Assembly (NCBI GenBank): GCA_004123355.1
Contig: SCHM01000001.1
Location: 5,448,001-5,512,000 of the forward strand
DNA length: 64,000 bases
Reading direction: 5' to 3'
DNA from: Amphirosellinia nigrospora
Taxonomy: Eukaryota > Ascomycota > Sordariomycetes > Xylariales > Xylariaceae
Part shown: one piece after another, positions 13,363 through 64,000 of the stretch
Position numbering within the stretch: the first letter of the stretch is position 1
Layout of the letters: every line of letters begins with the position of its first letter
Position numbers and translations under genes: made by a program
The notes under the pieces: model-generated
The model's database searches: none
What the model saw: only the letters and a program-made list of their open reading frames with translations
What the model was told of the DNA's origin: nothing

Positions 13363-14566
13363 TTAGCCTGCAAACAGAGTATCTTCGTCGCGTAGGTATT
13401 CTCCGCAGTCAGCTTGCCTAAAAACAACGATTCCAGTTGGGTCTAGTCTGCGTGCTCTATAGGTGATCTGAGTTAGTAGATAGCTCTATGAAATAAACCA
13501 CCCCGTCATAAAATTGAGGTTAGTAAATACAAAGAAAAACTTACTCAGCAGTACTCCTGGCAGATACACCAACTAAAATGCCATGTCAGTATCACTCAGT
13601 CAGGCGGTTAAATAGTGTGAAGTGAGAAAACTCACAGCCTAGCGCGCTATCCGTCATGTCATAAACCTAGCCAATCGGTTAGTAATAGTTCGAGCATTGT
13701 ATTGTCCGTGTATCACCCACTATTACTCCCACGTTGGAAGGGCAGTCCTCAGTCCAGCGGCCTACGTGGGCCTTGGATATATGACTGCCATATAGGAAAG
13801 GCATGACACCATTGGCTGTAGTAGAAGCTTAGCGGTTGTCTCGAGAGAATTAATGGGTGGTTCGGGCATACGTTTAATCCAGATCTTGTATCTTGCGTGG
13901 CTACGGTCGCATGTAAGTGAAGGTTCTTAGTGAGAAGGGGGGATATGGCGCTTACGCAGCTAGAATTGGCAGAGCCGTGATGTGCAGTCTAAACTTCAGC
14001 GTCTGCGCCTCAGTGTTAGCTTCCCTTTCGCATTGTCCGGCAGAGCTCTTATGTCAATTAAGGCCGCACCTTTGTGAATTTGCCTGTTCAGTCCAGCGTC
14101 CGTTAGTCGAGTAACTACCAATACTCGGCTTGTGAAGAGAGTATCCTACCCAAACAAATGCCCACCGAAGCCAGATTATCCCGAGCAATCGAAGTGGCAA
14201 CTGTAAATGCGCGTGTCAGATATCGATCATCCGAGATAGCAGGCTATCGATAAAGAGGCAATTCGAGGGCAGTAGTACGGTTCGCTATTGAGAGAAGAAC
14301 ATAATAGACCTGGAGCGACTGAGGTCAGCGAGAGTATTTGCGTAGGGTTCGTGAGAAGGAAATCGTACGCGATCCTTGATCAATCGAAATACGTAACGGT
14401 CGGCGTCGGGCGCATCGCTGAGAGGGGCGATCAAAGGTTTCAGGTCCGTCGTGTAGTTCGCGAGCTTTTCGAAGAGGATTTCTGAGGAAAGAAATGTTAG
14501 TTCTAGACGTCGATTCAAACCAACATTCTGGGCACAAACCGTCTCTTCTTCTGTTAACGGCCTCAT
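13363..14566 (-). CDS. nip7: 60S ribosome biogenesis factor Nip7, at least 11 exons including a 14-nt microexon
   Basis: Nip7 is a PUA-domain protein that binds pre-60S particles and is needed for 27S pre-rRNA processing. Reading down the minus strand: exon 1 14540-14566 (MRPLTEEET); exon 2 14369-14481 (LFEKLANY to RLIKDR); an unresolved short exon around 14250-14284 (YYCPRIAS); 14150-14200 (LATSIARDNLASVGICL); 14070-14083, only 14 nt (GKFTK); 13956-14002 (LKFRLHITALPILAA); 13872-13900 (HARYKIWIK); 13721-13815 (NGVMPFLYG to DCPSNVGVI); 13636-13666 (VYDMTDSALG); 13545-13572 (FGVSARSTA); 13363-13456 (RRLDPTGIVVFRQ to DTLFAG). From 14200 down, every exon length and phase adds up without correction and every intron is GT-AG. 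The exon 1-2 junction needs one extra A. The product of about 180 residues matches the family. Confidence 0.95.
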
Positions 14567-14936
14567 TTTGGCTAGAGGTAGTTGATGCGACGAGTTGAAT
14601 GGTGTTGGAGCTATGAAGTATGTATAAGGTAGATAATGGCTGCGAGCTATGGTCGCAATATCAGTGGTGGGGTGCGAGATGCTTCGTTCTGCTCTGCAAC
14701 TTTCTTTGGAAATTTTGGCCCAGGATAGCAGGAATCAAGCCGATTGGTCGACTACAGCTGATCGTCTCTTTATCGCTCGAAATGTGGGGCTTATCGGTCC
14801 CTGACAGGGATTGCTCACTGTAGTTATTTGGGAAAACTTTATGGAGCTCTCATCTGCCCGTGCCCACCTGGTACTAATCACCGCTCAACCATTAACAAAT
14901 TGAACCACATACATATCCCACTATATATCCTCAGAA
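14567..14936. promoter_or_regulatory. Shared divergent promoter of NIP7 and NOC3
   Basis: These 370 bases separate the start codons of two oppositely transcribed 60S-biogenesis genes. An inverted CCAAT box (gattgg) lies at about 14742. AT-rich TATA-like stretches lie near 14617-14627 and 14920-14927. Co-regulation is an inference from gene order and function. Confidence 0.55.
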
Positions 14937-17136
14937 ATGTCTTCAAGGCCGAGTAAAAGAGGAAACTGACACCTCCACAGTCAGAGGATGAGGGGGACTC
15001 ACGGTCAGGCGCTAGGATTCAAAGGTCCTTTTTCCAGAATGCCGCGAAATGGGACCTTATTGAAGATCAATATAAAGCACGAAAGGGTAAGAAAAGAGAG
15101 AAAGAGAGCACCAGGCTACCAGTGAAGCGAGATGGGCGTGTCCAAGCTGTGGTTACGCCCCTCGAGGATCTCAAGGAAAGCGATGATGACTGGCTGGAAG
15201 ACGAGGGAGACCGATCTGGAGATGACGAGGAAGAGGAGCAGAAACCGCCGGAAGAGCCTGCGATACCTGTGAAACAACAAATCCGCAACGCCAAAGAGGA
15301 ATTGGCGAAATTAGCCACAGTGCTCAACGAGGAACCCTACGAGAATACGGGAGCTTTCAAGGTCTTGACCAAAATTGGCCAATCTAAAATTCCAGCTATC
15401 GTAACACTCTCGCTAGTCACACGACTGGCGATATATAAAGATCTTATCCCGGGATACCGGATTCGGCCCATCTCAGAAGACGGAGCAGGGGGGGAGAAGC
15501 TCAGCAAGGAAGTCAGAACAATACGGGCTTTCGAGCAAGCCTTAGTTTTTGGCTACCAAGCTTATGTGAAAGAGCTCGCTCGGTATGCAAAGGCCCGAAA
15601 AAGTGACGCCGGCGGAGCTGGTATCGCGACCGTCGCAATAACGTGTGCGTCCTCGCTATTGACTACTCATCCTTACTTCAATTTCCGGTCCGATCTTATC
15701 AATATTTTGGTCTGGAAACTGAGCTCGCGCCGCCCGGACAAGGATTTCGAACACGCTCTTTCAGCGCTCACCACCCTGTTCAACGAGGATGACGAGGGTC
15801 GTCCCTCATTTGAAGTTGTCTCAACTCTCTGTAGGATGATGAAGTCCAAAGATTATCTCGTTCACGAAAGCGTCGTCAGCCTCTTTCTTCATCTCCGATT
15901 ACTATCAGAATTCTCTGGCAAAGGATCAAACGATTCGGTCGATTTGCCAATGGAAAGTCGGAAAAAACAGAAGAAGGCATTTCGTACAAAGCGGGAACGG
16001 AAACAGTAAGAGATTCATTCACATTGACCCCTCTGTTCCTCATCATATGCAACTAGCATGGGTGTTGTTTCTCTTCGAATCGTTTTCATACCCCCTTGAA
16101 TCCCACCATGGACTACGGTTGCTAACCATGTCAGACTTAAGGAAGAAAGGGCGCTACAAAAAGACATGGACCAAGCAGACGCAAATGTTCTCCACGAAGA
16201 GCGAGACAAGATGCAGGCTGAGTGTCTGAAGGCTGTCTTCGCCACATATTTTAGAATTTTGAAATTAAGAACGCCTCATCTCATGGGTGCAGTACTAGAG
16301 TAATAAATCATGCATTTACAAGATAGCAGACAGGACTAATAAAACTAGGGCCTCGCAAATTTAGTCATCTTATCAACCAACAGTTCTTCGGCGATTTACT
16401 CGAGGCTCTAAAGGACCTAATCCGGCATAGCGACGCAGACGAGAACGGCAGCGACGATCCCGAGGCCCCAGCAGAAGCAGAGGAAGATAAGGACGAGCCA
16501 ATCCGTAACACAACGCGTGAGTCTCTCCTCTGCACCGACAGCGTTCGCCCTGCTCGCCGGCCAGGACGCGCACAACGCTAAAGCAGACCTACATCTCGAC
16601 CTCTCCTTCTTCACTACTCACCTCTGGCGAACCCTCCTGCCCATTTCCCAAAACGCCGACCTTGAACTCGGCGCGCGGTCACTCCACCTGCCCGACCCCG
16701 ACGCACCGGGGTCAGCAGGTAAGCTGCGCGCAGACACGCGCGGAACAAGGTCAATCTGCAAACCACGACCGTCCTCTTGATCCGATGCCTCACCGCGGTT
16801 CTCCTCCCTCCGTGGAACATCCGCTCCACGCCACCCTCAGACTCGCCGCCTTCTCCAAGCAGCTCATGACGACCTCGCTCCACGTTCCAGAGAAGAGCGC
16901 GCAGGCTCTCCTCGCGCTACTAGCCGATGTGGGCAACACGCACGGGCGCAAAATTGCCTCTCTGGAACAGAGGAGCGCAAGGGCGACGGGTCTTCAACGC
17001 GATTTCCCCAAGTGAGGAGGGAAGCAATCCTCTAGCAACGACAGTTTGGGAGGGCGAGATTCTCAGGAGGCACTACTGCCCCAAAGTTCGAGACGCTGTA
17101 AAGATTATGGAAAAGAGTATTATGAGTGACAAGTAA
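14937..17136 (+). CDS. noc3: Nucleolar complex protein 3 (Noc3), pre-60S assembly and replication licensing
   Basis: Noc3 works with Noc2 in intranuclear 60S-subunit maturation and also helps load the MCM helicase in yeast. From the start at 14937 (MSSRPSKRG) comes an acidic, charged N-terminus (SQSEDEGD, then DDDWLEDEGDRSGDDEEEE), the long helical middle (AFEQALVFGYQAYVKEL, PYFNFRSDLINILVWKL) and a C-terminal half with ECLKAVFATYFRILK and INQQFFGDLLEALKDLI. The last frame ends SNPLATTVWEGEILRRHYCP to IMEKSIMSDK at 17136. Two introns follow GT-AG rules: one from about 16006 to 16136, one from about 16299 to 16354. Around six single-base breaks scatter the 3' half over three frames. The total of about 660 residues fits Noc3. 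It shares a promoter with NIP7. Confidence 0.9.
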
Positions 17137-23252: not shown

Positions 23253-26200
23253 ATGGACCAGGATTCCAGGACCGACGAGTCGCGAGAACGTGCCCTCTCC
23301 TCCGAGCCTAGCTCAACTCGCCCCAACCCTTTTGACGACGACGACAGTAATCTGTCGGCTCGCAAACGCAGGAGGACTTCTCTCTCCGGTTCCCCAGTGC
23401 CTCTGTTCGGACCGCCATCTCTCATGATAGCACCATAGCTCCTTTGGATACTTGCAATATGAAGATTGACACCCCGGAGCCCGCCCTTCCCAGCACCCCC
23501 GACCGCCCCGACCGCCGCCCCGAGCCTGTGTCTAGCCGCGTAACGATTAACCTACGTAACGTAGATAGCGTGGAGGCCACACCTATCTCTCCCGCATCTC
23601 CCACGCCTTCAGGTCAACAGCCAAGTCATGTCCGGGATACTGTAGAAATACCTGAAGTTGATATGGCCTCAACACAGCTTGTGGATGATGCTTCGTCTTC
23701 GTCCTCTACGTTTGGTAGCCCTGAGCCAATTGGCATCAATGCCGAGGACTTGGAGGATGACATCCAGTTCGCGGCTCGTGAGCCTGAAGGCCTCTTCCGA
23801 ACGGCCGACCTCGGCTCCATCGTGTCTGATTTCCCTATCGTTGTGAGGGTGAGCTACCCAAGATACTGTTGCTCGTCTCTCGAATTACTTTAGACAGCGT
23901 AAGTCACACGGACCGCCGCATTATAGAAGCTTGTCAATTGATTCTCGAACCCCAGAGCCTGGCAATGTGGATGAGGGTTTACTTGCTATTCATAACTGGC
24001 TGAATCGATGCTTATCAAGCGCTCGGCTTGAGCTCCGAAACACGATTCTTGAGGTATATAGAGAGAATCGAATGTTTTGGGTTTTCCTTCCTGATTTGTT
24101 TTACCAATTTGGTCAGAGGTAAGCGATATTAACAGCCTGATTTCTATAACCCTTGATTCTTAGCTGATATTTATGCTAGGCTGAGCCATACGAAAGCTAA
24201 AGAGATACGGGATCTCATCGCCCAGTTGCTCGCCCAATTTGCGAAATTGACTGCTTTCCTCCTCACATTAGACATTCGTAACCTACCCCAGGGGACAATA
24301 ACCGAGGAAAGCTTAGCTGGGCTGATGAGTCCCCACTACCTCCGAACATTGTCCACATTGCCACACCCGGAACATCCATATTTCGTGAACAGCGAACGTA
24401 ATCCAAACCTACTGGATCCCCTTGATGTGTTTCAGTCCAGCCATGGCGCTTCTATGGCTGTGGTCGCTTCTTTCATCGAGCGCCATACGGCTGTCCTACC
24501 CAAATTTCCGCGAATCATCCTGGAAAATCTTGCTTCCTGTTGCTTCATTGTACAGTCTTTGGCGAGAGAAAGTCACCATAAGCAAGTCTATTCAGCGGGC
24601 CTTCCTCAAAGCATACTAGAGCGTTCGCGGAAAAACCTGGCCTTAGCTTACCAGTCCTTCACATTGATATCATGTGCTATTGAAACGGTAATGGAAAAGT
24701 CGATCAACAATTTGTCGCAAGACAATGCAACAAATATAATCATTTCCTTATCTGAGATCCTAAGACAGAGTCTTCCAAGCGACCACCCGAAGCAGTGCAG
24801 CGCGTCCAGCAATACAGCCAAGAACATCCCCATCTGATACCGTATGTATACGAAGCAATAGCACTCGAATGGCGCTTCGAAGTATACTGCAAACTGATAA
24901 GATCGCGTCAGATGCAGCTCAGAGTCTCCGCTACGACATCCATGTCTGATGATCTAGTTGCGCAATGGAAGAGGTATCAGGACCGCCAACAAGAACCCCA
25001 CGATACTACTCGCCAGTATCTGGACTATCTACGGCACTTATCGGAATATGTCATGAGTACAGGCATAGTGGACTATATACTCGGTCCGACTTGCCATCCT
25101 GAAATTACGGGCATAAGTAGCAACATCATCGGATTCCTTGGTGTTACTAAGACTTATACCGATGCGCACACCGATCTCCTATGGCAAACATTAACTTCAA
25201 CGCAAGATCCTCGCATCGCAGAGGCTCTAGCTAAGATGATGCTCAAGGTCACAGCACTACTGCAGCCAACAGATTTGGCTTTTCTTCTGAACAAGTTTCA
25301 GCATGTTCCAGTAGATTCGTTCACGCCCATTATGCGGGATCTTTTTGATAACATCACTGAGCATTTGATTAAGCCTATGATGCCGCAACTGGAAGCCACC
25401 GCTTCATTTGATGTGTGCGTTCGATTACTTCGCGAGTCGTCTGTCTTTACAGCACAAGGCTCTATAGCCTACCCTGACATTTATCAATTTGCACAATCGA
25501 AATTGAAGAGACTCTTGACAGCAGGGTCTAGCGATGCAGGGCGGCGCAATAGTACTGAGCTGTTTGCAGGATGTAGCCTCTGGGTCTCAAACGTCTTCCG
25601 GAAGTCTGCAAGTACTAACCATATTGGCCGGAAACCAAACCGCGCTCCAGGAACTGATTGAAGAGCACAATTTCATCCAGCTTCTCGTGGATGATCTTGC
25701 GGCCACAGTCACGTCTGCGAAATCTATGGGTGTTTCCAGGGTCTATGCAAATCCGTTTTGCCACGCACGCCGAAAATTCATTTCAGCCATCATGATGCAA
25801 TTTGGGTCAGCCATCGATGCGTCCCTGGGCCAGCGGCTTTGGGACTACCTAGTCGGTGATAAAGCAACCAGTCAAGACGACCGAAAACTCGCCTGGGAAG
25901 ATTTGTACACCGCGCTGAAGCGAAACCAGAACAACAATCAATTTCTCCTCGATTGTGAGCGGCTATTTCTACCAAACCTCCCACCTTCGTTTTACTGTTA
26001 TGGATCGTTCGTTTTTGTCAGGGAGGTAGTTGTTCTAGTCGCTAATGACATTAATGGAATCATTCTTGATGACGATGAAAGCCTCAAGTCGTCTGGCCTG
26101 GAGCTACTCTGGCAGATAATCCTGGCAGCGCCTGACCGAACAATTGCAGATGGGGCGATTTCAACACTTGTTAATGAGATTTATGTCAACAGCCCAGTTA

Positions 26201-29200
26201 TTCTATCATATCCTCTTCAGCGCGCCAGGAAAGTTCATTTTTCCCTAGTTCATAGATGTCTTTTACAGCTAAAGATTGCTTCTCAGAAACTGAGGGTCTT
26301 TAACGAGCGCGCTACAAGGAACAATGAGGAACTAATGGTGATTGGTGCTGTGGATGATCAGCGCCTTGAACAAGAACTACGATTCGCGCGGACCCTCCAA
26401 GTTCTCACTACCTTAACGAGTACATTGCGAACGAAGTCGATTTTTGCCGCCCCTGATCTACGTTCTCTCATGCTGGTCTCGCCAACGCTGTCAATGGTGA
26501 CATAGCGGAGTTAAAGTATCAATCGTTCGACGGCGACGAACAGACAGAAATGAAGCCCTTGAGGATCGGCCTGAAGAATAGTGGCTGCCTCATTATTAGC
26601 TAGTCTACGGGAAGCTACTGGGTTCGAGAACTACCGGCTATACTATCGTGGAACTACACTCGCTCCCTCAGATGTTGATATTTGCAAGTCCTTGGAAGAG
26701 CTTAACATCAAAAGCGGGTTAATTCTTGTGAAAAGAGAGCTTGAGCTAGCATCTTCCCCTATACGCATCAAGCCTGGCGCGTCGCCGTTGGAAATAGAGA
26801 TACTTAGTCACTTTAATGATCTATGGGAATATCTGAGCATGGAAGAAAGTCTAGCTCGAGAGGTAACGTCCAGACTACTAACCACAACCTAGTTCTTGAC
26901 TGACGGAGATTTAGATATACAAATTTCTTATATCCTTGCCAGCAGACGATTCGATCTTGGCCGCATTTGAGAGCTCTAACGCTTCTCCTCGAGACGTCTT
27001 CCCTCTTGGCCAACCATTCAAGTCTCTTTACGCAATACACGCGCTTCGAGAGTACTTGAATACCCGGAGACTGAAAAACACCATGCACGCCTCTTCCCAT
27101 GAAGCGACAACAGAGCAGCAACTCAAAGACGACCAGCAAGATGCAGTAGCAAAAGCAATATCGTTAATTATTGCCGCAATATGCGATCCAGATGTCATCG
27201 ACCAATGCTTTAACCAGGATATGAGGCTACAGCTTAGTCTTGAATTGGTAGACACCTTTGTCCAGCTACTGAAAGGTCTGTCGTATTCCACATAATATGA
27301 TCCTTCATTTTCCATTGCTTCCGTGCTGACGTAGTACGCAGAGTCAATTGAGCCCAATCTACTTGGCCAACTACTTACGTCAAGACTTCATGAGCGGCTG
27401 ATGGCTATTCTGATGAGTGGCGCTAATGCTAATGGTAGTAAGACCAGCGTCGATCTTGTGCACAGATGCTTCGACGCGTTACTGGAATGCTGTGCCAAAA
27501 GCGATAAGTTCTGGACAATATTTCGAGGTCAAGCAGTGGTCAGGGAAGTGATCCAAACACTCTTGCTTTCCGACGAACGCCCATTCGTAAGAAAGAGTAT
27601 TGCGAAACTTATTACTACCAGAAGTTTATACGACAGTGGTCAATCGAGCGTCCTTGCAATCGATTTTGCGGAAGCCTTTTGGCCTATGATTCTACAATTA
27701 CTGCCCCAGGCCTCGTTGAAACCTCAGACATGCGAAGAATTATTCAATCTCGCCTCACAGTTAATAAAGAAGCTCATTGAGAATGGTTCGAGTGCCCTGG
27801 ACTTGCCATCTTGCGTTAAAAGATGTGGAGATCTCTTGCTATCGCACACGAGCACTGAAGACATCGCGCACCCAGAGACGTTCGATAAAGTAGCCTATGG
27901 GCTCATCTCTCTCTTACGTCAAGGTATTGAGCAAATGTCGATTGCTATGGAGAGCAGCGAACTTCCATCTATGCTTCCAAAGAGGCTGTTCTTGAAACAT
28001 TTGTTTCCCCCTGAGGACGAGGCAGGGCCGTTAGTACCGCACGCCATTCTTCACTCAACCTCGCGGCACATACTCTACGACATCATCTACACGCTGGCCA
28101 AAGACAGCCAGCCCCAGATGACGACAGTCTTGCAAAACCTAAATCACCTAATAGCGTACCAAGTAGAAGAAGGTGGCATCGTGTCCTACAAGTATGAACT
28201 TCCTCAGGCATTTGAGAGGACGAGCGCCATAAGATCCGTGTGTGGGTATCCAGGCTTGAGAAATTTGTCTAATACCTGCTACCTAAACTCGCTTTTCACG
28301 CAACTGTTCATGAACATTGGGTTCCGTCAGTTCATACTCCATGCTAGGATTGACCGACCCCGCTCTCAACAGCTCCTTAGTGAAACACAAATACTATTTG
28401 CAAACCTTCAAGATAGCAGGCGTCGTTTCATCGACCCACAAGCTTGCGTAGAGCAGATCACCACCTACGATGAGCTTCCTATCGATATTCACAATCAAAT
28501 GGACGTTGACGAATTTTTCAATCTCCTCTTTGATCGCTGGGAAGCGCAGTTCACTCTTAACTCTGACAAGAAGACTCTGAGGTCTATCTATGGAGGCCAA
28601 CTAGTTCAGCAGGTGAAATCGAAGGAGTGCGAACACATTTCTGAACGTATTGAACCGTTTTCCGCTATACAATGCGATATCAAGGGCAAATCGAGTCTTG
28701 AAGAAAGTCTTCAAGCGTATGTTGATGGGGAGATAATGGAAGGAGATAATAAATACAAGTGCTCGACGTGTGATCGACATGTTGATGCGGTCAAAAGGGC
28801 ATGTCTGAAAGACCTTCCGGACAATCTTATCTTTCACTTGAAACGATTTGACTTCAACCTACGCTTGCTACAACGTAGCAAGATCAACGACTACTTCCCC
28901 TTCCCAGACAAGATTGATATGCAACCATACACAGTCAAACATCTGAGTAATCCTTCTCGCAACGGGGAATCGGATATGTTTGAGTTGGTGGGTGTACTTG
29001 TACACTCCGGAACAGCAGAGACCGGCCACTACTATTCATTCATTCGTCAGCGGCCGACTAAATCTGGCGCCCCTGGGTCGAGTTTAATGACGACATAGTT
29101 ACATCTTGGGACCCTTCGCAGATGGAGAATGCGTGCTTTGGCGGACCAGATCATCGTCAATTTGATAATGGAAATATCTATGAGAAGGTGTATAGCGCCT

Positions 29201-31071
29201 ATATGCTATTCTACCAGCGATCTTCTTCCCTACACCAAGAGCAAGAGATACTGGAAGCATGTGGAAACCCAACACAACTCCGAATTAACGTTTCCCCAGA
29301 ATTGGAACTCCAAGTCAAGCTAGATAACTGGGCGATAATTCAGCGCCACAATCTTTACGATTCATCTCATATCGCGTTTATCCTCAAAATCCTCGAGTTT
29401 TCTTGGCTAGCAAATGCTCCAAGGAACACAAAAGAGAGAATCTTGCTATGAATGTCGCTCTAGGGCATTTAGACCAAGTTGCATCGCGAACTAAAGACCT
29501 CCCGGATTTCGACGCTCTTAACAGCCTAATTATCACTGCATGCCAACGATGCCCTCTCTGTTGCTTTGCTTTCTTCCAGTACTTCCAGTTACACAAAGAA
29601 GCTCTTCGGATGCTATTGTTCAAGAACTCTGATCCGTCCGTACGCCACGATTTGGGCCAGACCTTGCTCTACGTTCTAAGGAAAATCAAGAGCCATTATC
29701 CAGACGAATACGGCTGTGTAAGCTTTGACGGCGACGAGGCCACCACGTCGACCACTTCCAGGTCCACAATCTTAGAAGCAACTGCCGACCTCTTCGTCTA
29801 CATTTGGGAGTCGTTCCACACACGCCCTGTAGCCTGGCCCGAATATTTTGGTACCATGGTAGACTTTGCCAAACTTGGGAGGCTCGAATCCTGTGTGTTG
29901 CTCGATAGGGATTTCCTAGCCAGGCTCCTAATGGCTATCGCAGCAGACCAGACCTTCGATCTTCCCCTCAATACAGCAGGCTCCTCGCAGTTGTCTCGAG
30001 AAGGATGGCAACGCGGCCTCCAAATTATGAGGGTATAATTGCTCTAACCGATATTCTTATGGATTGCATGGATCATGAAATGAGCAACTCTGTGGAGGAC
30101 CCTGCCGGGCGCCTTTTAATGGCTCAGCACGACGACTTAATCCCGTTCACTTCACAGGAAGTCAACATCCTCCATAAGACATGGGGAGGAGTGATGCAGG
30201 TGTCTACATAGATAAACTAATCCAAATCAACCAGAACCCTGTCGCAACTGACAGTATAATCAGCAGACTTGCTACATCCAATACCCAAATGGACAACATT
30301 GTCATCGGATCCTTGTTATCTGGTATTACTGGCCAAATCACAGCCCAACCAGTGACCCCATACTTACATGCAGGTTATAACTATTGTACAACCAGTCAGA
30401 ACATAGAGGGCGTACATCGAGTCATCCGGCACGTTAGTGATCAATGCATGGCTGTTCAAAACTCCGAAGCGCGATCGTTCTTTGAGTTTCAGAGAAACCT
30501 ATTTGATGGAGTACGTAGTACTGGCGAAAGCAGCGAGGATATTCGACTACATAGTTTACGGAACCTACCCCTTTGGATACCAGGACTATTAGGATACCTC
30601 GACCGCACTCTGAGTGGCTTAGTAGAGGTCTTTCTACATGACAAGCTGTTTAAATACGGCCCAAATCCGGGGTTCGAACCGGCTAGTGGTGGGTCTAGCA
30701 GGTCGCAAGCGATGATCACTGCAGCCAAAGAGCTTGCTGTCAACATTCTTTATTACCTACGTGATACATACGTGGCGCGCATGGCACAGGTTTCCAAGGA
30801 TACAATGCAGCCCTTCCATCGGACCTTGCAGAAATGCGACCTCTACTTTCAAGAACATGAGGATCAAGACGACAATATGGGTTTAAAGTTCAAAGAACTC
30901 TGTTCTTGTATGATAACCCCTCAGCCGTCTCGTCAAACTGTCAGCAATTCTTTACTGACTTAAGACATAGCTATACTCGAAACTATGCATAGTTTGACGG
31001 TTGACGAAATTGAAGACGACGGTTCTGGTATGTCAATCGACTCTGTTAGCAGCGGCGTGGGATATGACTGA
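23253..31071 (+). CDS. Giant ubiquitin-specific protease (USP9X/USP34-like deubiquitinase)
   Basis: This cysteine protease removes ubiquitin from substrates. About 2,500 residues: a disordered N-terminus (MDQDSRTDESRERALS, then DDDDS and KRRRTS); a long helical-repeat region; a ubiquitin-like segment near 26540-26760 (SLREATGFENYRLYYRG to IKSGLILVKRE); the catalytic domain at about 28240-29220; and a helical C-terminus. The Cys box is GLRNLSNTCYLNSL with Cys at 28277-28279. A CxxC zinc-finger motif (YKCSTC) lies near 28757-28771. The His box is TGHYYSFIRQ with His at 29027-29029, and the third residue is in EFNDD (about 29080). Introns fitting phase or signals: 23849-23926, 24119-24179, 26863-26914, 27276-27341. 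Around ten single-base breaks split it over all frames. A stop at 30961-30963 is followed in frame by 35 coding-like acidic codons ending at 31071. Confidence 0.93.
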
Positions 31072-49532: not shown

Positions 49533-50786
49533 CTACTCTATCATTGCCCTCAGGCGCCTCCGATCGTTCTCCAGCATCGTCTGGCTAGCGTACCATAAGC
49601 TCCGTACAGGGTGGCCATCATCGCTATACGCGGGAAACAGGTTAGTTCCGTTGTATTTGCTTGGCAGTTGAATTCCGCCAGGGCTCCGTAACCTGTAAGT
49701 ATTGCCGTGATGGCAACTCGCTATAGCCCATGGTCCGTCATAGAAGGGTTCCGTTTTATTGCTACGCTGGCGTACTCGCAGTACCCAGTCTCCGGGTGCG
49801 TAGGTTCGGATCAATCCCTTTTTCTCCTGTAGGTAAGCTCTGATCTGGTCTCTAGAAGCCTTCAAACTGTTGAAGTAGTTCCTTGCCATAGGTGCTTCGT
49901 GGTTCTTTACTAGGCTCTGCTGGAATTCGACCTCTTCCCCCTCGGTTGGGTCCCTTACGTATTCAGAGACTTCAACAGGTGACTGCTGTTGAGGAGGTTG
50001 GGTGCCAAATAAAAGGAAATAGCTGCTGTAGCCACTTGGCTTCGGTGTCCGATTGTGAATGTTTACAGCTGCCTGCAACAGAGTAGCTGCGTCAGGGTAT
50101 CTGTGTGCCAGACCTTCTCGTAGCATAATCCGCTTGAGGTCTCCGTTTGCCTTTTCCACTTTGCCGTTGCCTCTGGGTCTCCCAGGTGTAATAGGCTTAA
50201 CCACAGATCCCTTGCTTTGGTGCCACTGAGTTGCTTCGTCACCTACGAACGCGCCTCCGTTATCGCTAATCCATTCCCTTGGGTACCCGAAAGTCTCCCC
50301 GATCTTGGTGATCAGCGGTATCGTGCTCAGAAATGACACATCGGGTACTATAGCTGCCTCCACCCATGCTGTAGCGTATTCTACGCATACCAGTATCTTC
50401 AGTTGTGCCATAGATGTGTGGTCTATTGCCCAACGTGTCAGCGGTGGTGGTGGTACTATGGGTCGTAGGTCTGGCAGCATCGTCAGTGGTGGCTTCATCA
50501 ACTGACACTGCCTGCATTCTGCCACAGCCTGCTGTGCCATCAGCGTGATCTCCGGGTGCCAATACTGCTTATTGATTTCGCGTGTTAGGGTGCCAACTGT
50601 GGCGTGCCCTAGGTCAACGTGTGTATTCTTGACCTTCTGCAGTAATTCTGGTATTTCGGGGATCTTCAGGAGCGCTACCGCTTGATGTGCCGTTCCTGCA
50701 GGGTGTGGGGGTCTCCGGGGGTCCGTTGGTACTGGGCTATTTTGTATAGTTCTCCTTCGTGTGTGATAAAGTGCCTGGTTACCCAC
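49533..50786 (-). CDS. Gypsy integrase portion
   Basis: This is part of the young Gypsy fossil. Visible are an N-terminal HHCC zinc-binding region (HVDLGHATVGTLTRE to ECRQCQ), the integrase core with RWAIDHTS, ISDNGGAF and NGKVEKANGDLKR, and a C-terminal GPY/F-like stretch (FYDGPWAIAS). Confidence 0.93.
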   Translation of the reverse strand: MGNQALYHTRRRTIQNSPVPTDPRRPPHPAGTAHQAVALLKIPEIPELLQKVKNTHVDLGHATVGTLTREINKQYWHPEITLMAQQAVAECRQCQLMKPPLTMLPDLRPIVPPPPLTRWAIDHTSMAQLKILVCVEYATAWVEAAIVPDVSFLSTIPLITKIGETFGYPREWISDNGGAFVGDEATQWHQSKGSVVKPITPGRPRGNGKVEKANGDLKRIMLREGLAHRYPDAATLLQAAVNIHNRTPKPSGYSSYFLLFGTQPPQQQSPVEVSEYVRDPTEGEEVEFQQSLVKNHEAPMARNYFNSLKASRDQIRAYLQEKKGLIRTYAPGDWVLRVRQRSNKTEPFYDGPWAIASCHHGNTYRLRSPGGIQLPSKYNGTNLFPAYSDDGHPVRSLWYASQTMLENDRRRLRAMIE

Positions 50787-52933
50787 TGGGCCTCCAGATT
50801 CAGTGGCAACTCGCCATCGAACTTCAAGAACTCAAATATAGCTTGCAGGTCTATACGGTTTAGCTGTTGCGGCAGTTTAACTAACTGCCTTTCCATGTTC
50901 GGTAGTATCTGCGTTTCGGGGTCGCGTTCCGCTGTTGGGAAAGTCGTTTCGGGAGGTCTCGATAGCCAATCAGCTAGCACGTTTGACTTGCCTGTACGAT
51001 ATACAATTCGTACACTATAGTGCTCGATAGCATCCAAGAATCGAACTATTCGTGCTGGTTGTTCTGATTTGCTCTTTATCGTAAGTAATGACTCATGGTC
51101 GGTACGTACAGTTACTTCTCCTCCTTCTACCCAGTGCTTCCAGTGCTGTAATGCCAACATGATAGCTAGAAGCTCTCGTTCCTGTGCCGAGTAACGCGTT
51201 TGGTGGTCACCTAGCTTCTTGGAAAAATATGCTACTGGATAGAGTGCTGTTTTCTCTCCGTGGAGATGTGGCTGCATTAAACATGCCCCGACGTGCAGTT
51301 GGCTGGAATCCGTATCCATTACGGAGGGCAACCTCCAGTCGAATGCTCTAATCACTGGCATTGTAGTCATCGCATCTTTAATCGTTTGCCAGGCTTTCTG
51401 GGCTTCTGCGTTTAGTACGACTGGTTGGTTTTTCGGTCCTCCTGTCAGTGCCGTAAGTGGTGCCGCGATCAGCGAATACTTGTCAATCAGGTGCCTGAAA
51501 TAGCCTGCTGCATTCGCGAATCCGCGTACTTCGGTAGTTGTTCTCGGCATCGGTCTGTCCCTCACTGCGGCTACCTTCGCTGGGTCTGCTTTGATTCCTT
51601 CCTGGGATATGTGGAATCCTAGGAATATGCCTTGGTTGACGAACATTAGGGTCTTCGCGGGGTTGATCATCATGCCGTACTGCGCTAGTCGTTCGAATAG
51701 CATACAGCACCGTTGATATAGTTCTTCCCTCGTCTCTCCCCAAATACAGATATCGTCGAGTAGGCCTGCCAGCCATTCCCTGAAGGGCTCCACGATCTCC
51801 TCTATCAGGGCCTGAAAAGTGGCTGGTGCGTTGCAGAGTCCGAAAGGCATAACTAGCCATTCGTATATGCCGAAAGGTGTTACGAATGCTGTTTTCTCGC
51901 GGTGGGGGCCATATACTCCTATATGCCAATATCCATCTTTGAGATCCACGAAAATATACCACCTGTGACCTGCGGCCCTCTGTATTTGGTCCGCGGCGTT
52001 CGGTAACGGGTGGGCTCGCTTTTTCGTGACCTTATTCAATTCCCTGTAATCGCAGCAGAATCGCCATATGACATTTTCTTGGTCACTAAGGTCAGGCTTG
52101 GTGGTTTCGCCAGGTCGCTTCTTCGGGGTCAACAGTGCCGGCGCGCCCCATGGTCCCATACCCTTTCTGATATGAATACCTAAGTGTGCCTTGACGAATT
52201 CCCTCATAGCTCTCTCTTGTGCAGGGCTATACCTACGGGGTGGTAGCTTTATTGGTGGGCTATCCCTAGTATCGATGTAGTGCTTTGTGCGTGCTATGAC
52301 ATCGGTACGTCGTTTAGCTAGATTGAATAGGCCGGGGAATCGTTTCACCAGTTCTGCCTGTTTGTCTGCTATCCAGGGGTCCTTTGGCGTATCCTTGTGC
52401 CAGGTTACCTTTGTTTCTTCTGTCTCTTTCGCGTTATAGGTCATCTCCGTAGCTGTACTAGCCAATGACCGTTTCAGGGGTTCGAGTAGGGGTGCTCCGT
52501 TGAATTTCGTCAGCTTAATTGTTTCGGTATCCTTCACATAGCCGAAAACGCTGCCCCATTCATGGAAAATACGCTTCCCTAAGGTTACGTCACCAGGGAA
52601 CGTACGGTCTGGCACAACGCCTCCAATCACGGTCCAGGGTTCTGTAGTGCCTTCTGTCGTCACAAATTGTGCCGTAATTTCGCAGTCTTCTGTAACCATT
52701 GGTCCAACTCCTCCGATGCCATGCATAGTGCCTTGTCTCTGTGATTTGTAGGGCTGGAGCTTTGAAGCCAATGATTGCGAGATATAGCAGCTTGTGCAAC
52801 CGTAGTCCCAGAACACTGTAAATGTGTTGCCGTTGTTCAGTCGGGCCTGGAACAGGTTATGGCGGTCGTTGTAACCATGCCTCAACTTATCTCTTTCTGG
52901 GGTCATTTTACTGCCCTCGTCCAATCTGACCAC
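50675..52933 (-). CDS. Gypsy protease-like, reverse transcriptase and RNase H portion
   Basis: This is part of the young Gypsy fossil. An aspartic-protease-like segment (VFWDYGCTSCYIS) precedes reverse transcriptase with VDLKDGYWHI, MPFGLCNAPATFQ and LLDDICIWG. The RNase H region has MDTDSSQLHVGACLMQ and TDHESL. Confidence 0.95.
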   Translation of the reverse strand: MVRLDEGSKMTPERDKLRHGYNDRHNLFQARLNNGNTFTVFWDYGCTSCYISQSLASKLQPYKSQRQGTMHGIGGVGPMVTEDCEITAQFVTTEGTTEPWTVIGGVVPDRTFPGDVTLGKRIFHEWGSVFGYVKDTETIKLTKFNGAPLLEPLKRSLASTATEMTYNAKETEETKVTWHKDTPKDPWIADKQAELVKRFPGLFNLAKRRTDVIARTKHYIDTRDSPPIKLPPRRYSPAQERAMREFVKAHLGIHIRKGMGPWGAPALLTPKKRPGETTKPDLSDQENVIWRFCCDYRELNKVTKKRAHPLPNAADQIQRAAGHRWYIFVDLKDGYWHIGVYGPHREKTAFVTPFGIYEWLVMPFGLCNAPATFQALIEEIVEPFREWLAGLLDDICIWGETREELYQRCCMLFERLAQYGMMINPAKTLMFVNQGIFLGFHISQEGIKADPAKVAAVRDRPMPRTTTEVRGFANAAGYFRHLIDKYSLIAAPLTALTGGPKNQPVVLNAEAQKAWQTIKDAMTTMPVIRAFDWRLPSVMDTDSSQLHVGACLMQPHLHGEKTALYPVAYFSKKLGDHQTRYSAQERELLAIMLALQHWKHWVEGGEVTVRTDHESLLTIKSKSEQPARIVRFLDAIEHYSVRIVYRTGKSNVLADWLSRPPETTFPTAERDPETQILPNMERQLVKLPQQLNRIDLQAIFEFLKFDGELPLNLEAQWVTRHFITHEGELYKIAQYQRTPGDPHTLQERHIKR

Positions 52934-52948
52934 GTGGACGGGGCTGTC

Positions 52949-54643
52949 CTAGGCCTCACTGAACAGATCTTCCAGTTCCTGGTCGATCCGGTCGTCTTCC
53001 AGGCGCTCCGCAGCACTTCGTTCGAGTTCCTCGGGGTCTTCGTCGTTATCCTCCGTAAAGTGTACTCGCTTCTGCGGCTTGCCTCTGAAAGACTTGTATT
53101 TAGTTCTGAATTTCTCGAACTTATTGGCTAGGTCGTTGCGGTATAGCGTGCCTTTGATCGTAACGGATTGGCCGGACTGGCCTTGTGGTTTCGTTGTCTT
53201 AGGCCATTGCACTTTCTCGCGGCAGTCCTTGGCCCAGTGGCCAGGCTTGCCACAGTTGAAACACACGTTATCCGCTACTTTCGCTGCGTACCCGTCGTCG
53301 CGGGTTTGCTGTTCCGCATCGTCACCGTTAACTTCGGTGACACGGCTAACCTCCCGGCTGTCGGTACGGGGGTCTGAAATGGTAGGCATTAGTGCCTTCG
53401 GGGTCATTTCCGTATTGTCGACTGGCTGGATCTGGCCTACGGCAGGTTTGCCTGCCGTACCTCCGGTAATGTTGTAATTGTAGTAGGGTGCTGTTGTACC
53501 TTGGAGTTGTACGGTGATCTCGGGGGTACTGTAGATTTTCGGTTCCACGGAGGTCATAGTGATCATTCCCGATACTCGTACTGCCTCCTCCATGATTTGG
53601 CCTGTGTTCCATTCTCTGCTGAAACGCTCTATATTGAGCCAAATGCTTGGGGCATACGTAGTAAGCTTATCAACTATTACGTCACGTGTTTGCTGGGTGT
53701 TTCGAGTACCTCCCGGCAGTCGATAGAAAGCCTCCCGTAGTCTCCAAAGATAGCTCATATATGCTTCGTTTTGGGCTGGCAACAGTCCTACAAATACCGT
53801 TAAGGGGCTGTGCAGTGCGTTGTAGGTACCTAGTACTTGGATCACTGCTTCCAGAAAGTCGATCCAGGTGGCCGCTGTATTGCTGTTTCTGATGAATAGC
53901 GCCACTTGCTGGAAATCACCCGCTAATTCGAGCATGACTCTCTTGGTCCATAATTCGTAGGGCACCAGGGCCTGTGCTAGTCGTACCTGGATTTGGCGTA
54001 CCTTATCCAGTGTGGTATGATCGGCTCGAATTAGACGTAGATTAGGTGGTATGATTACCTTATTCTTGTCCTCGCACTTGCCTAGCTCAATAGCGTCGCT
54101 CGCCAAGAATGCGTCAGGAAAAATGGCCTGAACTCGCTGTTCTTGTCGGGTCTGGGTAAAATTTGGGCCTCTATATTTCTGTAGGTTCAACGAAAGGTCC
54201 TCCAATCGTTTCTGATTAGTTACGCCAGTTGGTTGTCGCATGTATGCCTCATCCGTTCCTTCAGCACCTGCGAGTGCGTGTAAGGGGTCTGCTGTTATAC
54301 CTGCTGGTGTACCCGCTGGAGCTGGTGGCGCTGGGGTTGTTGCTGGTCTTGTTGTTGCACCTGTTGGTGTAGTTGTAGTGCCGCCACCTTGGTTTTGTAG
54401 ACCTAGTTCTCGGAAACCTTTTCTCATTTCCGTCAGCATAGCTTCGAATCGTAGGTCTATTTTCGTCTCCAGTTGGTCGATTCGCTTGGCTACGTTAGTT
54501 GCTAACGCGTTAATACGGGTATTACAGCTTGCTATATTCGTAGCTGGTGGGACGCCTATCAGGTCATCTGACGCTGGGCTGCCTGTATCCGTTGTAGAGC
54601 CGCCACTTTCTGCCTCGAAATGGGCTCCCGTGAAGTCCGCCAT
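52949..54643 (-). CDS. Gypsy gag portion with CCHC zinc knuckle
   Basis: This is part of the young Gypsy fossil. A 564-residue capsid/nucleocapsid-type protein: an N-terminal coiled stretch, a Pro/Thr-rich linker, a helical capsid-like middle and the zinc knuckle CFNCGKPGHWAKDC near the C-terminus, followed by a charged tail. Confidence 0.93.
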   Translation of the reverse strand: MADFTGAHFEAESGGSTTDTGSPASDDLIGVPPATNIASCNTRINALATNVAKRIDQLETKIDLRFEAMLTEMRKGFRELGLQNQGGGTTTTPTGATTRPATTPAPPAPAGTPAGITADPLHALAGAEGTDEAYMRQPTGVTNQKRLEDLSLNLQKYRGPNFTQTRQEQRVQAIFPDAFLASDAIELGKCEDKNKVIIPPNLRLIRADHTTLDKVRQIQVRLAQALVPYELWTKRVMLELAGDFQQVALFIRNSNTAATWIDFLEAVIQVLGTYNALHSPLTVFVGLLPAQNEAYMSYLWRLREAFYRLPGGTRNTQQTRDVIVDKLTTYAPSIWLNIERFSREWNTGQIMEEAVRVSGMITMTSVEPKIYSTPEITVQLQGTTAPYYNYNITGGTAGKPAVGQIQPVDNTEMTPKALMPTISDPRTDSREVSRVTEVNGDDAEQQTRDDGYAAKVADNVCFNCGKPGHWAKDCREKVQWPKTTKPQGQSGQSVTIKGTLYRNDLANKFEKFRTKYKSFRGKPQKRVHFTEDNDEDPEELERSAAERLEDDRIDQELEDLFSEA

Positions 54644-54812
54644 TGCGTACAGGATAGATATTGCAGGGTATACTTCTCAGGATGGGTCTCGACAAGGTGT
54701 CTGATTGGCGTAATCGCAGGGTTAGATCTCTGCAGGTTGGTCGGCTGCAGGGTTGTCTATGATCGCGCAACTAGTCTTAAATGAAAGCTGTGAAGCTGCG
54801 CAAATAGCTATT

Positions 54813-55954: not shown

Positions 55955-58900
55955 TAAAATAGTGCTTTATTACGTAGTTTTATTATAAATATTAAACTAT
56001 ACTAAAAACTATTTATTTTTAAGTTTTTTAAAATTAAAAAATATAAATTTTCCCGGCGATAATTAGCGCGTAATTTATACGTATCTATTAATTAAAGCAA
56101 ATATTATGCCCTAGCGTTAATCTATTTTATATTTTTATTTTTATACTTTTTGCGAAGCTTTTAAATAAACTAATTATTTAGCTTTAAAAAAAGCTTAATA
56201 AAGTATTTTTATATCCTAAATATATTAGTTTTTATAATATAACTAAAGTTATTATAAAGTTATAAACGTTATAAATTTTTATTAATTAATCGTTTTAAAT
56301 ATTCTAGTTTTATTATAAAATTTTTAAACGTTTTAGTTTGCTATTAAAGTTTATAAATATATTAGTTTTACTATTAAAATATAGTTATAAATTATATATA
56401 TTTTATTTTATTTTTATTTACGTATAGTTTATTTTATTTTAAGTTATTATTTATAACGTTATATAAAAATACAAATTATAAAACTAGCATAATAACAGTT
56501 TTTTTATATACTTAATTATTTATTAAATTAAACGTTAAATTTATTATTAAAGAATTTTTATTTAAAGTTTTTTTTTTTTAATTTTTAGCGTAATAACTAT
56601 TAAAACAAATATTATTATTATTAATATAAATTTTATTAAAAACGTTTATAAATCGTCCGATAATATAATTTAAAAAGTCAAAACAAAACAAAAAAATAAA
56701 ATTAACGTAAAAATAACCGAATTTAAAACTAATATTAATAAAGCTTAATTAGCGATAATAAATTAAAAACTTATAAAGTTTTTGTTTAAAAAATTAAACT
56801 AATATTTAAAATTTAACGTAAAAATTATAAATATATTTTTAAAATAATAATAAATAATACTTTAAGCAAAATTAAATTAAATTAAATATAAAAAAACTAT
56901 AAAAAATATTAAATAAATTAATAATAAACTCAACTTAATTATATAAATAAATTAAAATTTTAGCGCTTTTATAAAGTTTTAAAAAAATCGATATTATATT
57001 CTTATTAATATTTTATTTTTAACCGTATTAAACTAGTAAGCTTTTTACGGCATAATAATTAACTTTAATAATATAGCTATAAGCAAAAAAAAATAACTAT
57101 AATACCTTTACCTTTACTTTTAAGTATATAAGCGCAACAATAATATTTTGCCTTTATTTCCTCCTTGTTGCCTCTAAAAACAATATAAAGAATATTAGAA
57201 TATATTTTTTAATTAAAATAAACAATAATAATAATAATAAAAATAATAATATAAAGCAGGCAACCCGATAATAATTTAGATTTATTAAATAGTAATACTA
57301 GCTATAGCTATAGCTATAATAAAACGTTATTATTATAAAACCCTGTTTTTAATTATATTTATAATAAAAAATATTTATAAAATTAAACGTAAAAATATTA
57401 AAGTTTTAAACTTTAATTAAAATAACTTAAAAAATAAAAAATTATTACAATAAAAAAAACATTATTTATATAAATACGTATATATTTTCTTAACGTATTT
57501 AAGCTATATATAAGCTCGATAATATAAAATTATTAAATAATAGCTAAATTTTAAAGCTATTTAACTATTTTTTCGCAAGTTTTACTTTTTTATAATAAAA
57601 CAATAAAATTAAGCTTATTAATCGTTATATTTAGCAAAAAATAAGCTTAAATTTAATATTTAAAAAGTTAAAAAAACGGTTTAAAATACGCTTTAAATAC
57701 GTTATAAAAAAGTTTTTCGAAAACAACTTTTTTTTATTTAATATAACGTAAAACAAAATATATTTATTTAATTTATTTAATATAAGCTATAATATGCCCG
57801 CAAAAATAAAATTTTAGCCCGAAATAATTCTAATTAATAAAATATTATAGAAAATTTTATAACTAATAAGCTAAAATAATCGTTAATTATATTTATTTAC
57901 TAAAAAAAAAAATATATTAAATAAATATATAAAAAAATCGATAAAACGTACTATAAATTAAAATAAAAATAAAGCATAAATTTTTAAACGTTAAACTTTT
58001 TTATAACTACTTAAAAAAGTAATAAAACCTTTAAAATTTACGTCCTAAATATAATAACTATAAATATTTTAATTATTATTAATTAAAAAATAAATATTAA
58101 TTTTATTATAAATATTTTTTATTTTAATAATAAACGTAATAAATAACGTAATAATAATCGCGATAAAAATTATAACTATTATAAAAAAAGCAATAAAAAA
58201 ATGCTTATAAAAAAAAAAACGTAATAATAAAAATAAAAAACGTAATAATAATTATAATAATAGTTAAAACTATAATTATAATTATAACTATAGCTATAAC
58301 TATAGCTATAAACTATATAATAGCGATTATAAGCGTTATTATAATAAAAAACGCAATAGCTATTATAGTATATATTAAGCTAATAACGCGCGTTTAAATA
58401 AAAAAAATCTAAATATAAATATTAATAGAAAATATTATAGCGGCAGTATTTTTTATTATATATTTAGTTTAGCTTTTATTTATTATAAATATTATAAAAA
58501 ATATAAATATTTAATACTTTTGTTTTATATATACAGAAATATAAGCTATATATTCTATTAAAACATATAGCATATATTAATATTTTTTTATTTATTATTT
58601 TAAACAATATATATATAAATATTATATTTAAATATTATTTTTACAAAATAAACTTTTTTAATATTTAAGCTAATATAAATTAGCTAAAAAAAGTACGGTT
58701 AAAAAACAAAATATTTTTAATAATAATTTATTATTATATAAAATAAATTAAATAAAATTTTTAAATTAAAAATACTTATATTTAAAGCGCTAAATATAAA
58801 CATATATAATAAAGCTTACGCTTAAGCTATATATATTTTTGCTTTCGTATATATATTTTACTAACTAATTAAAATATAAAAATATATACCAATTTAAATA

Positions 58901-61900
58901 TAAATAAAATTATAATCGGTAACAAATATTTTAATATATTAAAATATATAGTAAAAAAACATAAAAACTAAATAATTATTATTAAAAATAAACGCGTAAA
59001 AATAACGTATTAAGCTAAATTTAAATTTTTTATTCGAAAAATTAATAATAATAAATAGCTTAAAATTATAAAGTATAAAAAAAAAATTAAATTATAAATA
59101 AAAACTATAACTAAATATATTAATTAGTAATAATTTTTTTATTTTTATAAAACTATTATTAATTATTTTAAAAATATTATTATTTTTTATAACTTTAATA
59201 ATTTTACTATTAATTTTAAGGTTTAGTCCGTAATTATAAATATATATAAAAGTTATTAATATATATTATAATTATATAGCTAACAAAAACGTATATTTAT
59301 AAGTTAAATATAAGCTATTATTTATTAACTATAATTTTATTTTATAATAATATATAAAAATACGATAAATATTATAATAAACGCGAAAACTTTTAAAATT
59401 ATCTTAGTTATTAATATTACGAATATTTTAATTAAAATAAACAAAATATTAAACTAAAATAAATCTATAAAAATTATAATAATATATATATTAGCTTATA
59501 AAAATTAACTATAAAGATTTTAGCTATTATAGCGGTTATTTTAATAATATTATTAGCTAAAATAGTTAGTTTAGGATTTTTAGCTATTTTAAATTATTTG
59601 TTGCTATAAATACTAAGTTTAATATAACGTTAATTATTATAGCTATTATAATTAATATAATATTAATAAAACTAATATTTATAAATAAATTAACGAATTT
59701 TATAGTTATTTTTATAGTAACGTTTAATAAAACTAATAATTATACTACTAGTTTTACGTAAAAAATAATATTTTTGTTTTTAATTATTATATTTTTAATA
59801 TTTAGTTTTCGAATATTTTTTTTATTAACGTAGTAATAATTTTATTATAAACATTAAAACTACGTTACTACTAAAAGAACTATATATACTAGTATTAAAA
59901 AAGCTTTTTAAGTTTAAGCTTTTAAAAAATATTTTTATTTTAAATATTAAAAAGTTTATAAATTTTTTTAAAAATATAATTAATAATAATATTTATATTT
60001 ATATTAAAAAAGCTTTTAAAATAGTTAAGTTTGCCGAAATTATTAAAGCTTATAATATTTAAATAAATAAAAACAAAGTCGATATTTTTAAAATAAAATA
60101 GTTTAAGATTTTTTTTATCGATAATTAATAAAAAATAAAACTAAATATAAAAGCTTATTTTTTTAGTCGAAAAAATATAAAAGTTTTTAATAAAACTTAT
60201 AATAAATTTTATAAAATAAATTATATAATTTAAATAAATAAAGCTATATTTTTCGTATATTTTATATTTTTATTTAAAAAAAGTTTACGGCGTAAATAAA
60301 GCCGAATAGTTATTAATTTATAATAGTTTAATAAGGTCGCTATTTCTAATAGCTATTTTTTTTTTTATAAAATAAAATAATCGGAAGCTTTTATAAAAAA
60401 GCTTATATTATTACGTTAATATAACCGGTTTTTTTTATTAATTTTAGTTTATTTAACTATAAAAATAAGTTTATTATTATTAGTTTTTATAGTATAAAAT
60501 AATTTAATATTATATTAATAAAATATAAATTCTTTAGTTATATTTAAAATATATAAAAATAAATTTTTTCGTTTTTATATTTTTATTATTATTTATCGAT
60601 AATATTATTTTTTTCTAATACGTTCGAAAATAATATAATATTAATATAATATTTTTTAGTTTGTTTTAATTAAAAAATATATTATATTATCGAAAAAGTT
60701 TTTTATTAGTTATTTTTTTATTAAACTTTTCGGATTTTATATTAATATTTTAAAAATATTTATTATTATTAAACGCGTATAAACGTTTAAATAGCTTATA
60801 TTTTTTAAAAACTTTTAAGCTTTTAAATAGTACTTATATAAATAGATTTTCTATAATTTATTTTTTTTTTATTACGTATAATTAGCCGAGCTATTTAATA
60901 AAACGTAAAATATAAACTATATTAACTAGCTAAAAATTATTAAAAAAAAAATAATAAATAATAACCTAGGTTATTATAAGTATTATATATAAACTATATA
61001 TTATAACTTTATATTAGCTAAAATAGCTTTTTTTAACGCTATTTAAAACGTTATTTGTTTTAAAACTATACTTTATTATTATAACCTAGATTATATTTTA
61101 TATTTATAAATTAATAAATATTTCGAACGAAGTTTCGGCGTTATAGTTTTTTATATTAAACTAAGTTTTAAATAAAAACTAAACGAACTTATATTTTTTA
61201 TATAAATATAGCTAGTTATATATTTAAATCGATATTTATTATAGGCCGAAATTAAATATAACTTTTTTAAATAAAAAATAGCGTATTTATATAAACTATA
61301 AAAAAATTTCGTATAATAATTTATTTAAATAAATATTATATAATAGTTTTAACGGATTATTTAGCTATAAAAAATATTATTAATTAGATTTTATTAAATA
61401 TTTTTATTACTAATAAAATAAATAATCGATTTATTAATTTATTTATTTATTTATTATAGTATATTTTAAGTTTTTTATTTATTAAACGTTTTAATTATAT
61501 TCTAAATATATTAAATTAATTTACTATAGTATAAAATACTATTAACCTAAAAAATAAATTAAAACGATTATAAAAACTTATAGTACTAAACTTTATATAA
61601 AATATAGTAAAATATACCGTAGAAATAATAAAAATAACGCGTTTAAACATAATTTCGAGCTAAAATATAAAACAAACCTTTACTATAAAAAATCTTAAAC
61701 AAACTTTGCTAAAATTAATTTTATAAACTATATAATAATAAAAACGCTATTATTTTTTTTAAAGCTAAATATTTATTTTTTATTATAAACGGTTTAATTT
61801 ATAATAAGCATAAAAAAGTTAAATAATTTTACGTTCCGTATATAATATACGAACAAATACTATATATTATATACAATAAAAATATTATTTTAAATTTAAC

Positions 61901-63549: not shown

Positions 63550-63752
63550 TTTTAATAGAGCCCCTAAAGGGTTTATGTTACTAGTGGCTTTTTTGCGCGG
63601 AGCGTAAGAGAAACCACCTAACAACACTTATATCTAAATAAACAGCTGGCATACTACTAGTCAGAAAATCTATTATTAGATCTACTACGTGGATTTAATA
63701 ATAAATTCTCTTTCTTTAATTAAGCTTTACTTTATAACTTATAATATTCTTT
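63550..63752. repeat. Right direct repeat (probable LTR) of the nested element
   Basis: Pairs with 55751-55954, sharing the gcgcggagcg core and the segment atatctaaataaacagct. The differences between the two are nearly all RIP-type transitions. Confidence 0.87.
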
Positions 63753-64000
63753 TTAAGTTTTTTATATATTTAAAATTTTAATAAATAATTATTATTAAAA
63801 AAATTAAATACTAAATAAAAAAAATAATTATTATAGTTATTTAGCTTTAATATCCGATTATAAATATTTATAGTTATTTATATAAAATAGCTATATTAAA
63901 GTATTTATATATTAAATTTTTTTATAATATAATTTGCTTAAAGTTTTTGTTTATTTTTTTATTTTATTATTATTTTAAGTTTTTTAAATATAATAAGCTT

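Follow-up and report, generated by a model that had tools for sequence, protein, structure and literature searches.

A NIP7 gene in 11 exons, one of them 14 nt long, as an extreme case of ordinary gene splitting in Amphirosellinia nigrospora

In Amphirosellinia nigrospora, the gene for the 60S ribosome-biogenesis factor NIP7 is split into 11 exons by 10 introns, and one of its internal exons measures 14 nt. The gene runs on the minus strand from 14566 to 13363 of the window, by which we mean the whole 64-kb stretch analyzed (C1:5448001-5512000, in a searched genome of 48.1 Mb in 11 contigs). It is an extreme case of ordinary gene splitting, real and striking in form and ordinary in kind. It is the sole copy detected and, very probably, a working NIP7 gene that belongs to an intron-dense tail of small conserved genes and is spliced by intron definition; that its introns are removed, that this happens in the intron-definition mode, and that protein is made are predictions from the sequence.

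The model was obtained with a purpose-written spliced aligner, which favors good donors and imposes GT-AG except for the rare GC form, and was identical with yeast and human Nip7. The alignment with yeast Nip7 scored 537; the best of 20 mononucleotide shuffles reached 64, and the opposite strand 59. Varying the intron cost between -6 and -15 left the 11 exons unchanged; with a cost of -20 or -25, exon 1 was lost and the model began in what is otherwise the 3' end of intron 1. All 10 introns are GT-AG, with phases 0, 1, and 2 represented by four, four, and two introns, respectively (intron 1 as aligned), and exons 2 to 11 form a single open frame up to the stop codon, to which the last exon was extended. 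The parts of the gene, all placed by spliced alignment, are as follows.

14540..14566, minus strand: exon 1, 27 nt, with the start codon (MRPLTEEET), aligned with both yeast and human Nip7
14482..14539, minus strand: intron 1, GTTTGT...CTAAC...CAG, 58 nt, followed by a frame mismatch of one base, a probable assembly error
14369..14481, minus strand: exon 2, 113 nt as sequenced
14310..14368, minus strand: intron 2, 59 nt, phase 0
14279..14309, minus strand: exon 3, 31 nt
14201..14278, minus strand: intron 3, 78 nt, phase 1, the weakest donor of NIP7
14150..14200, minus strand: exon 4, 51 nt
14084..14149, minus strand: intron 4, 66 nt, phase 1
14070..14083, minus strand: exon 5, the 14-nt microexon, which finishes the G of CLG and then encodes KFTK
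14003..14069, minus strand: intron 5, 67 nt, phase 0
13956..14002, minus strand: exon 6, 47 nt
13901..13955, minus strand: intron 6, 55 nt, phase 2
13872..13900, minus strand: exon 7, 29 nt
13816..13871, minus strand: intron 7, 56 nt, phase 1
13721..13815, minus strand: exon 8, 95 nt, where the Pfam profile PF03657 matches
13667..13720, minus strand: intron 8, 54 nt, phase 0
13636..13666, minus strand: exon 9, 31 nt
13573..13635, minus strand: intron 9, 63 nt, phase 1
13545..13572, minus strand: exon 10, 28 nt
13457..13544, minus strand: intron 10, 88 nt, phase 2, with two TACTAAC motifs
13363..13456, minus strand: exon 11, 94 nt with the stop codon counted

The first-pass annotation of this DNA had proposed at least 11 exons, and the yeast and human alignments agree on exactly that number; both also contain the internal 14-nt exon that it had placed at 14070-14083. 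The lengths it gave (14, 47, 29, 95, 31, 28, and 94 nt) and the ends of the gene at 13363 and 14566 proved exact. Its count of four more exons below 50 nt was too low, the actual number being six, and the exons for which it gave no length measure 27, 113, 31, and 51 nt. It had also described GT-AG introns with exact phase arithmetic: the splice-site dinucleotides hold for all 10, and the phase is exact at nine of the 10 junctions, intron 1 being one base off. A microexon is usually taken as an exon of at most 36 nt, as stated in PMC11121469, and by length the internal exons of 31, 14, 29, 31, and 28 nt are microexons.

The predicted protein is homologous to NIP7 along its whole length, the alignment spanning residues 1 to 180 of yeast Nip7, and among the positions compared, 132 of 174 (75.9%) are identical in Chaetomium Nip7, 119 of 180 (66.1%) in the yeast protein, and 102 of 179 (57.0%) in the human protein. 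A PDB search with an incomplete draft of 154 aa, made from hand-joined exon translations, matched the NIP7 proteins of Chaetomium (E value, 7.7e-63), yeast, fission yeast, and human; of the few species that the PDB covers, Chaetomium gives the best match for NIP7 and also for NOC3. Compared with the Chaetomium chain 8i9r_CG and the NIP7/UPF0113 family (PF03657), the conserved start and end are alike and no notable difference in the protein was seen. The first-pass annotation had named a second, intron-poor nip7 as a finding that would count against its reading. None was detected in the 48.1-Mb genome at the sensitivity of our searches: the PF03657 profile gave a single match above cutoff, in exon 8, and the two matches of yeast Nip7 at E values up to 10 are both exons of the gene at 13363-14566.

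We compared the intron density of NIP7 with that of 37 loci of the same genome, aligned with the same aligner. We chose these comparators with 31 typed proteins, taking the best or second match to each, and six of them are second copies (cyclophilin, beta-tubulin, Arf1, 14-3-3, eIF1, and RPS15A); they were taken by match and not as established orthologues, and further listed matches were left out of the alignment. Long introns were penalized, since without this penalty (17 loci) spurious introns appeared at gene ends (Ubc9 and eIF5A). Some tiny or terminal exons are doubtful, namely, the 5-nt exon of RPS15A, the last introns of eIF5A, the last exon of RPB10, and the first two introns of RPS14. 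The 37 loci contain 120 introns, with medians of 3 introns per gene, 5.6 introns per kb, and 68 nt per intron, and density declines with coding length (Spearman -0.36, p = 0.03, 38 loci). With 10 introns and 18.1 introns per kb of aligned coding sequence, NIP7 ranks first in count and second in density against these loci.

The denser gene is RPL23 (C4:3554200-3555900, L080), with nine introns, 21.8 per kb, one frame break, and exons of 14, 48, 19, 87, 28, 51, 60, 57, 21, and 27 nt, seven of which are at most 51 nt. RPS14 (C1:3834900-3836700, L076), with eight introns and 17.9 per kb, about equals NIP7, its exons measuring 30, 21, 13 (internal), 42, 67, 61, 60, 90, and 63 nt. The two genes resemble NIP7 in their many introns (of 47 to 143 nt), in their density, and in having very short internal exons, of 19 nt in RPL23 and 13 nt in RPS14. 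Further dense genes are RPB10 (15.6 per kb, from only 3 introns in 192 nt), DIB1 (11.7), and calmodulin (11.3), and other internal exons of at most 20 nt occur in DIB1 (17 nt), calmodulin (16 nt), and, doubtfully, RPS15A (5 nt). The first 26 comparators (median, 5.45; maximum, 11.7 per kb) had suggested that NIP7 is exceptional within its genome, an idea that we rejected with RPS14 equal to it and RPL23 denser. RPS14 and SmD2 had been overlooked by the chimeric six-frame search that located most comparators, and each was then searched singly. That search finds genes with long exons more readily, and even the median of the 37 loci may therefore be too low; because the search misses genes with only tiny exons, the unusualness of NIP7 is, if anything, overstated.

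Against published figures, the density of NIP7 stands far above the averages for filamentous ascomycetes. PMC8476143 gives an average of 0.47 introns per kb for 122 Pezizomycotina and describes densities as much alike in nearly all members, with every species biased toward loss, and PMC2246297 gives 0.81 to 1.16 introns per kb for conserved regions of euascomycetes, versus 6.7 for human. Expressed per gene, the reported numbers are 3 to 4 introns in Pezizomycotina (PMC8469720) and 2.53 in Fusarium core genes (PMC5677156). Our comparators were picked for being conserved and small, and their densities should not be set against these genome means. The remark in the first-pass annotation that so many introns are unusual for a filamentous ascomycete is therefore borne out by the published averages and loses its force within this genome, where RPL23 and RPS14 match NIP7. 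Our literature search, at the level of titles and abstract openings, found no paper on NIP7 introns in fungi, the matches concerning aquaporins and boric acid channels, and it found none on microexons in intron-rich Pezizomycotina. Pattern scans for intron-bearing NIP7 relatives returned seven stretches in viral contigs and 145 in genome contigs, none of which was confirmed.

One reading of these densities, which we consider doubtful, is that the small ribosome and translation genes of this lineage (NIP7, RPL23, and RPS14) were flooded with introns, to about 18 to 22 per kb of coding sequence, against the 7.6 per kb estimated for the fungal ancestor (PMC8476143). Were it true, intron gain would be targeted to genes, and these three would reveal when and how it occurred. 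If relatives turn out to be without these introns, the genes would be well suited for studying how introns are gained in filamentous ascomycetes, a group in which intron loss is described as prevailing. The genes are also a severe test for gene finders, combining exons of 13 to 31 nt in conserved genes with single-base frame breaks in the assembly, and NIP7, RPL23, and RPS14 are likely to be annotated with broken models or missed altogether.

With an intron 1 of 58 nt, exon 2 begins one base out of frame. Use of another donor, 19 nt farther downstream, would keep the frame, leaving an intron of 39 nt and adding six residues that are absent from yeast and human Nip7 and fall inside the conserved start of the protein; we regard this alternative as less likely. 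The mismatch is most likely an assembly error, because apparent frame breaks occur about once per 0.8 kb in conserved genes of this assembly (25 in 20,215 nt over the 37 comparator loci, some of which may be alignment artifacts in variable stretches). One-base exonic breaks were found in actin (3), the beta-tubulins (3 and 2), Ran (2), and Cdc42, Skp1, and Ubc9 (1 each), with none in calmodulin and Ubc4, and about half of the breaks in these genes fall, by eye, in short single-base runs. As actin, both beta-tubulins, and others carry them too, the breaks reflect the assembly and not decay. The frame break at intron 1 is the one feature that would fit NIP7 being a pseudogene or an assembly artifact, a reading to which we attach almost no probability: NIP7 is essential in yeast, the gene is the sole copy detected, and its exons 2 to 11 share one frame.

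The introns of NIP7 are of the U2 type and of ordinary size. All are GT-AG, their lengths (54 to 88 nt) agree with the comparator median, and a CTRAY branch motif lies 8 to 45 nt from the 3' end in eight of them, versus 72 of 83 comparator introns. It is very improbable that they were recently gained from a multiplying intron family, such as introner-like elements or the sister stwintrons of Hypoxylaceae, a family in which the spread of stwintrons and introns is described (PMC8469720 and PMC9024468). NIP7 shares with those stwintrons short U2 introns and a fungal order that is probably related, the ITS region of this genome looking like that of Xylariales. It differs from them in that its introns have no detected copies and fold in no unusual way, and nine of the 10, at 78 nt or less, we judged too short to contain two nested introns of normal size. 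As a DNA query, the whole gene matched itself alone in the genome, a search that short or diverged copies could escape; comparison of the introns with one another and with 83 other introns gave shared matches of just 9 to 13 nt (E values of at least 0.067), and the folding z-scores are ordinary (-1.03 to 1.64). No stwintron anatomy was seen in the NIP7 introns, intron 10 (88 nt) being judged by eye. We thus found neither many similar copies nor a nested second intron, and the copy, similarity, and folding tests speak against a young family of similar introns.

What stands out in the introns of NIP7 is the weakness of their donors. Nine of 10 lie below the median of 103 introns from other loci, RPL23 and RPS14 excluded (Mann-Whitney p = 0.005, uncorrected and one of several looks); against an earlier set of 83 introns, all 10 did (p = 0.0016). 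Within that earlier set, the intronic part of the donor alone, its exonic part alone, and the acceptors showed no difference at p < 0.05. By gene mean, SBDS and eIF5A have weaker donors than NIP7. The weakness is not common to the other dense genes, with five of nine RPL23 donors and three of eight RPS14 donors below the median, i.e., of normal strength. Donors this weak could point to splicing that is inefficient or regulated, or to a lower expression of NIP7 than of the comparators, and lower expression would account for them as well as regulation.

These donors, together with the many introns, are what might make NIP7 splicing a control point, at which introns could be left in, nearly all such products would be destroyed by nonsense-mediated decay (NMD), and the supply of NIP7 would be tuned to growth. 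Mis-splicing would almost always harm the transcript. Retention of seven of the 10 introns brings a stop and that of the other three shifts the frame, while skipping shifts the frame for eight of the nine internal exons as sequenced (exon 2 would be in frame if the missing base lies there). Such damage is mostly expected by chance and is no evidence of control; furthermore, weak donors may merely mirror the level of expression, and RPL23 and RPS14 are about as dense, yet have normal donors. We consider a control point improbable.

In the explanation that we favor, the 10 introns of NIP7 are short, of the U2 type, and ordinary; their splice sites would be paired across the intron (intron definition), and they would be taken out one at a time. 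The spliceosome could pair the sites in this way because each intron has its own donor and acceptor and eight of the 10 a consensus branch motif, and short introns between tiny exons suit such pairing. The 14-nt exon would then need no recognition of its own. In fungi, splice variation is reported to consist mostly of retained introns and not of skipped exons, which has been linked to intron definition (PMC2397502); from this dominance of retention, we infer that the length of the 14-nt exon need not limit splicing. The suggestion in the first-pass annotation that 14 nt approaches the lower limit for exon definition is, in the light of that report, not apt. With RPL23, RPS14, RPB10, DIB1, and calmodulin, NIP7 makes up a tail of small and conserved genes of high intron density in this genome, most of them related to translation; all except RPB10 have internal exons below 20 nt. 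A very short exon in a filamentous ascomycete has a precedent in the functional microexon of Xlr2 in Trichoderma virens, whose inclusion is reported (PMC11121469) to vary with glucose and to switch the product. Unlike in Xlr2, we saw no sign of regulation at the NIP7 microexon, and skipping its 14 nt would shift the frame.

NIP7 lies head to head with NOC3 (plus strand, ATG at 14937), both genes coding for 60S-biogenesis factors, with about 370 bp between them.

14567..14936, no strand: intergenic stretch between NIP7 and NOC3, with CTCATC at 14849 and AAATTTT at 14710, from sequence and motif search

These two motifs resemble the PAC and RRPE motifs found at ribosome-biogenesis genes in yeast. 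Near the NOC3 start (14937-14990), the ATG frame ends after ten codons and the frame that matches Chaetomium starts at 14957, a change that resembles the other frame breaks of the assembly. An ORF of 587 codons at 27335-29095 (plus strand) has the ubiquitin hydrolase (deubiquitinase) USP34 as its best match, and long ORFs flanking it (24157-30960) may be parts, with it, of a single very large gene. An intron-dense neighborhood was rejected in view of this ORF and of a 350-codon open stretch in NOC3.

At the far end of the window, positions 56001-64000 have 11 to 15% G+C and adjoin sequence of about 50%; we take this AT-rich stretch to resemble the RIP-mutated repeats of Pezizomycotina. Next to it on the minus strand (50678-54676) lie retrotransposon-like ORFs, both open over long distances, one (50678-52948) with reverse transcriptase and RNase H, the other (52952-54676) with a zinc knuckle. 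Elsewhere in the genome, the first 60 kb of contig C10 hold at least three equal-scoring copies of 5.8S rRNA (L005, L006, and L007), 39 of 1190 candidates having been scored.
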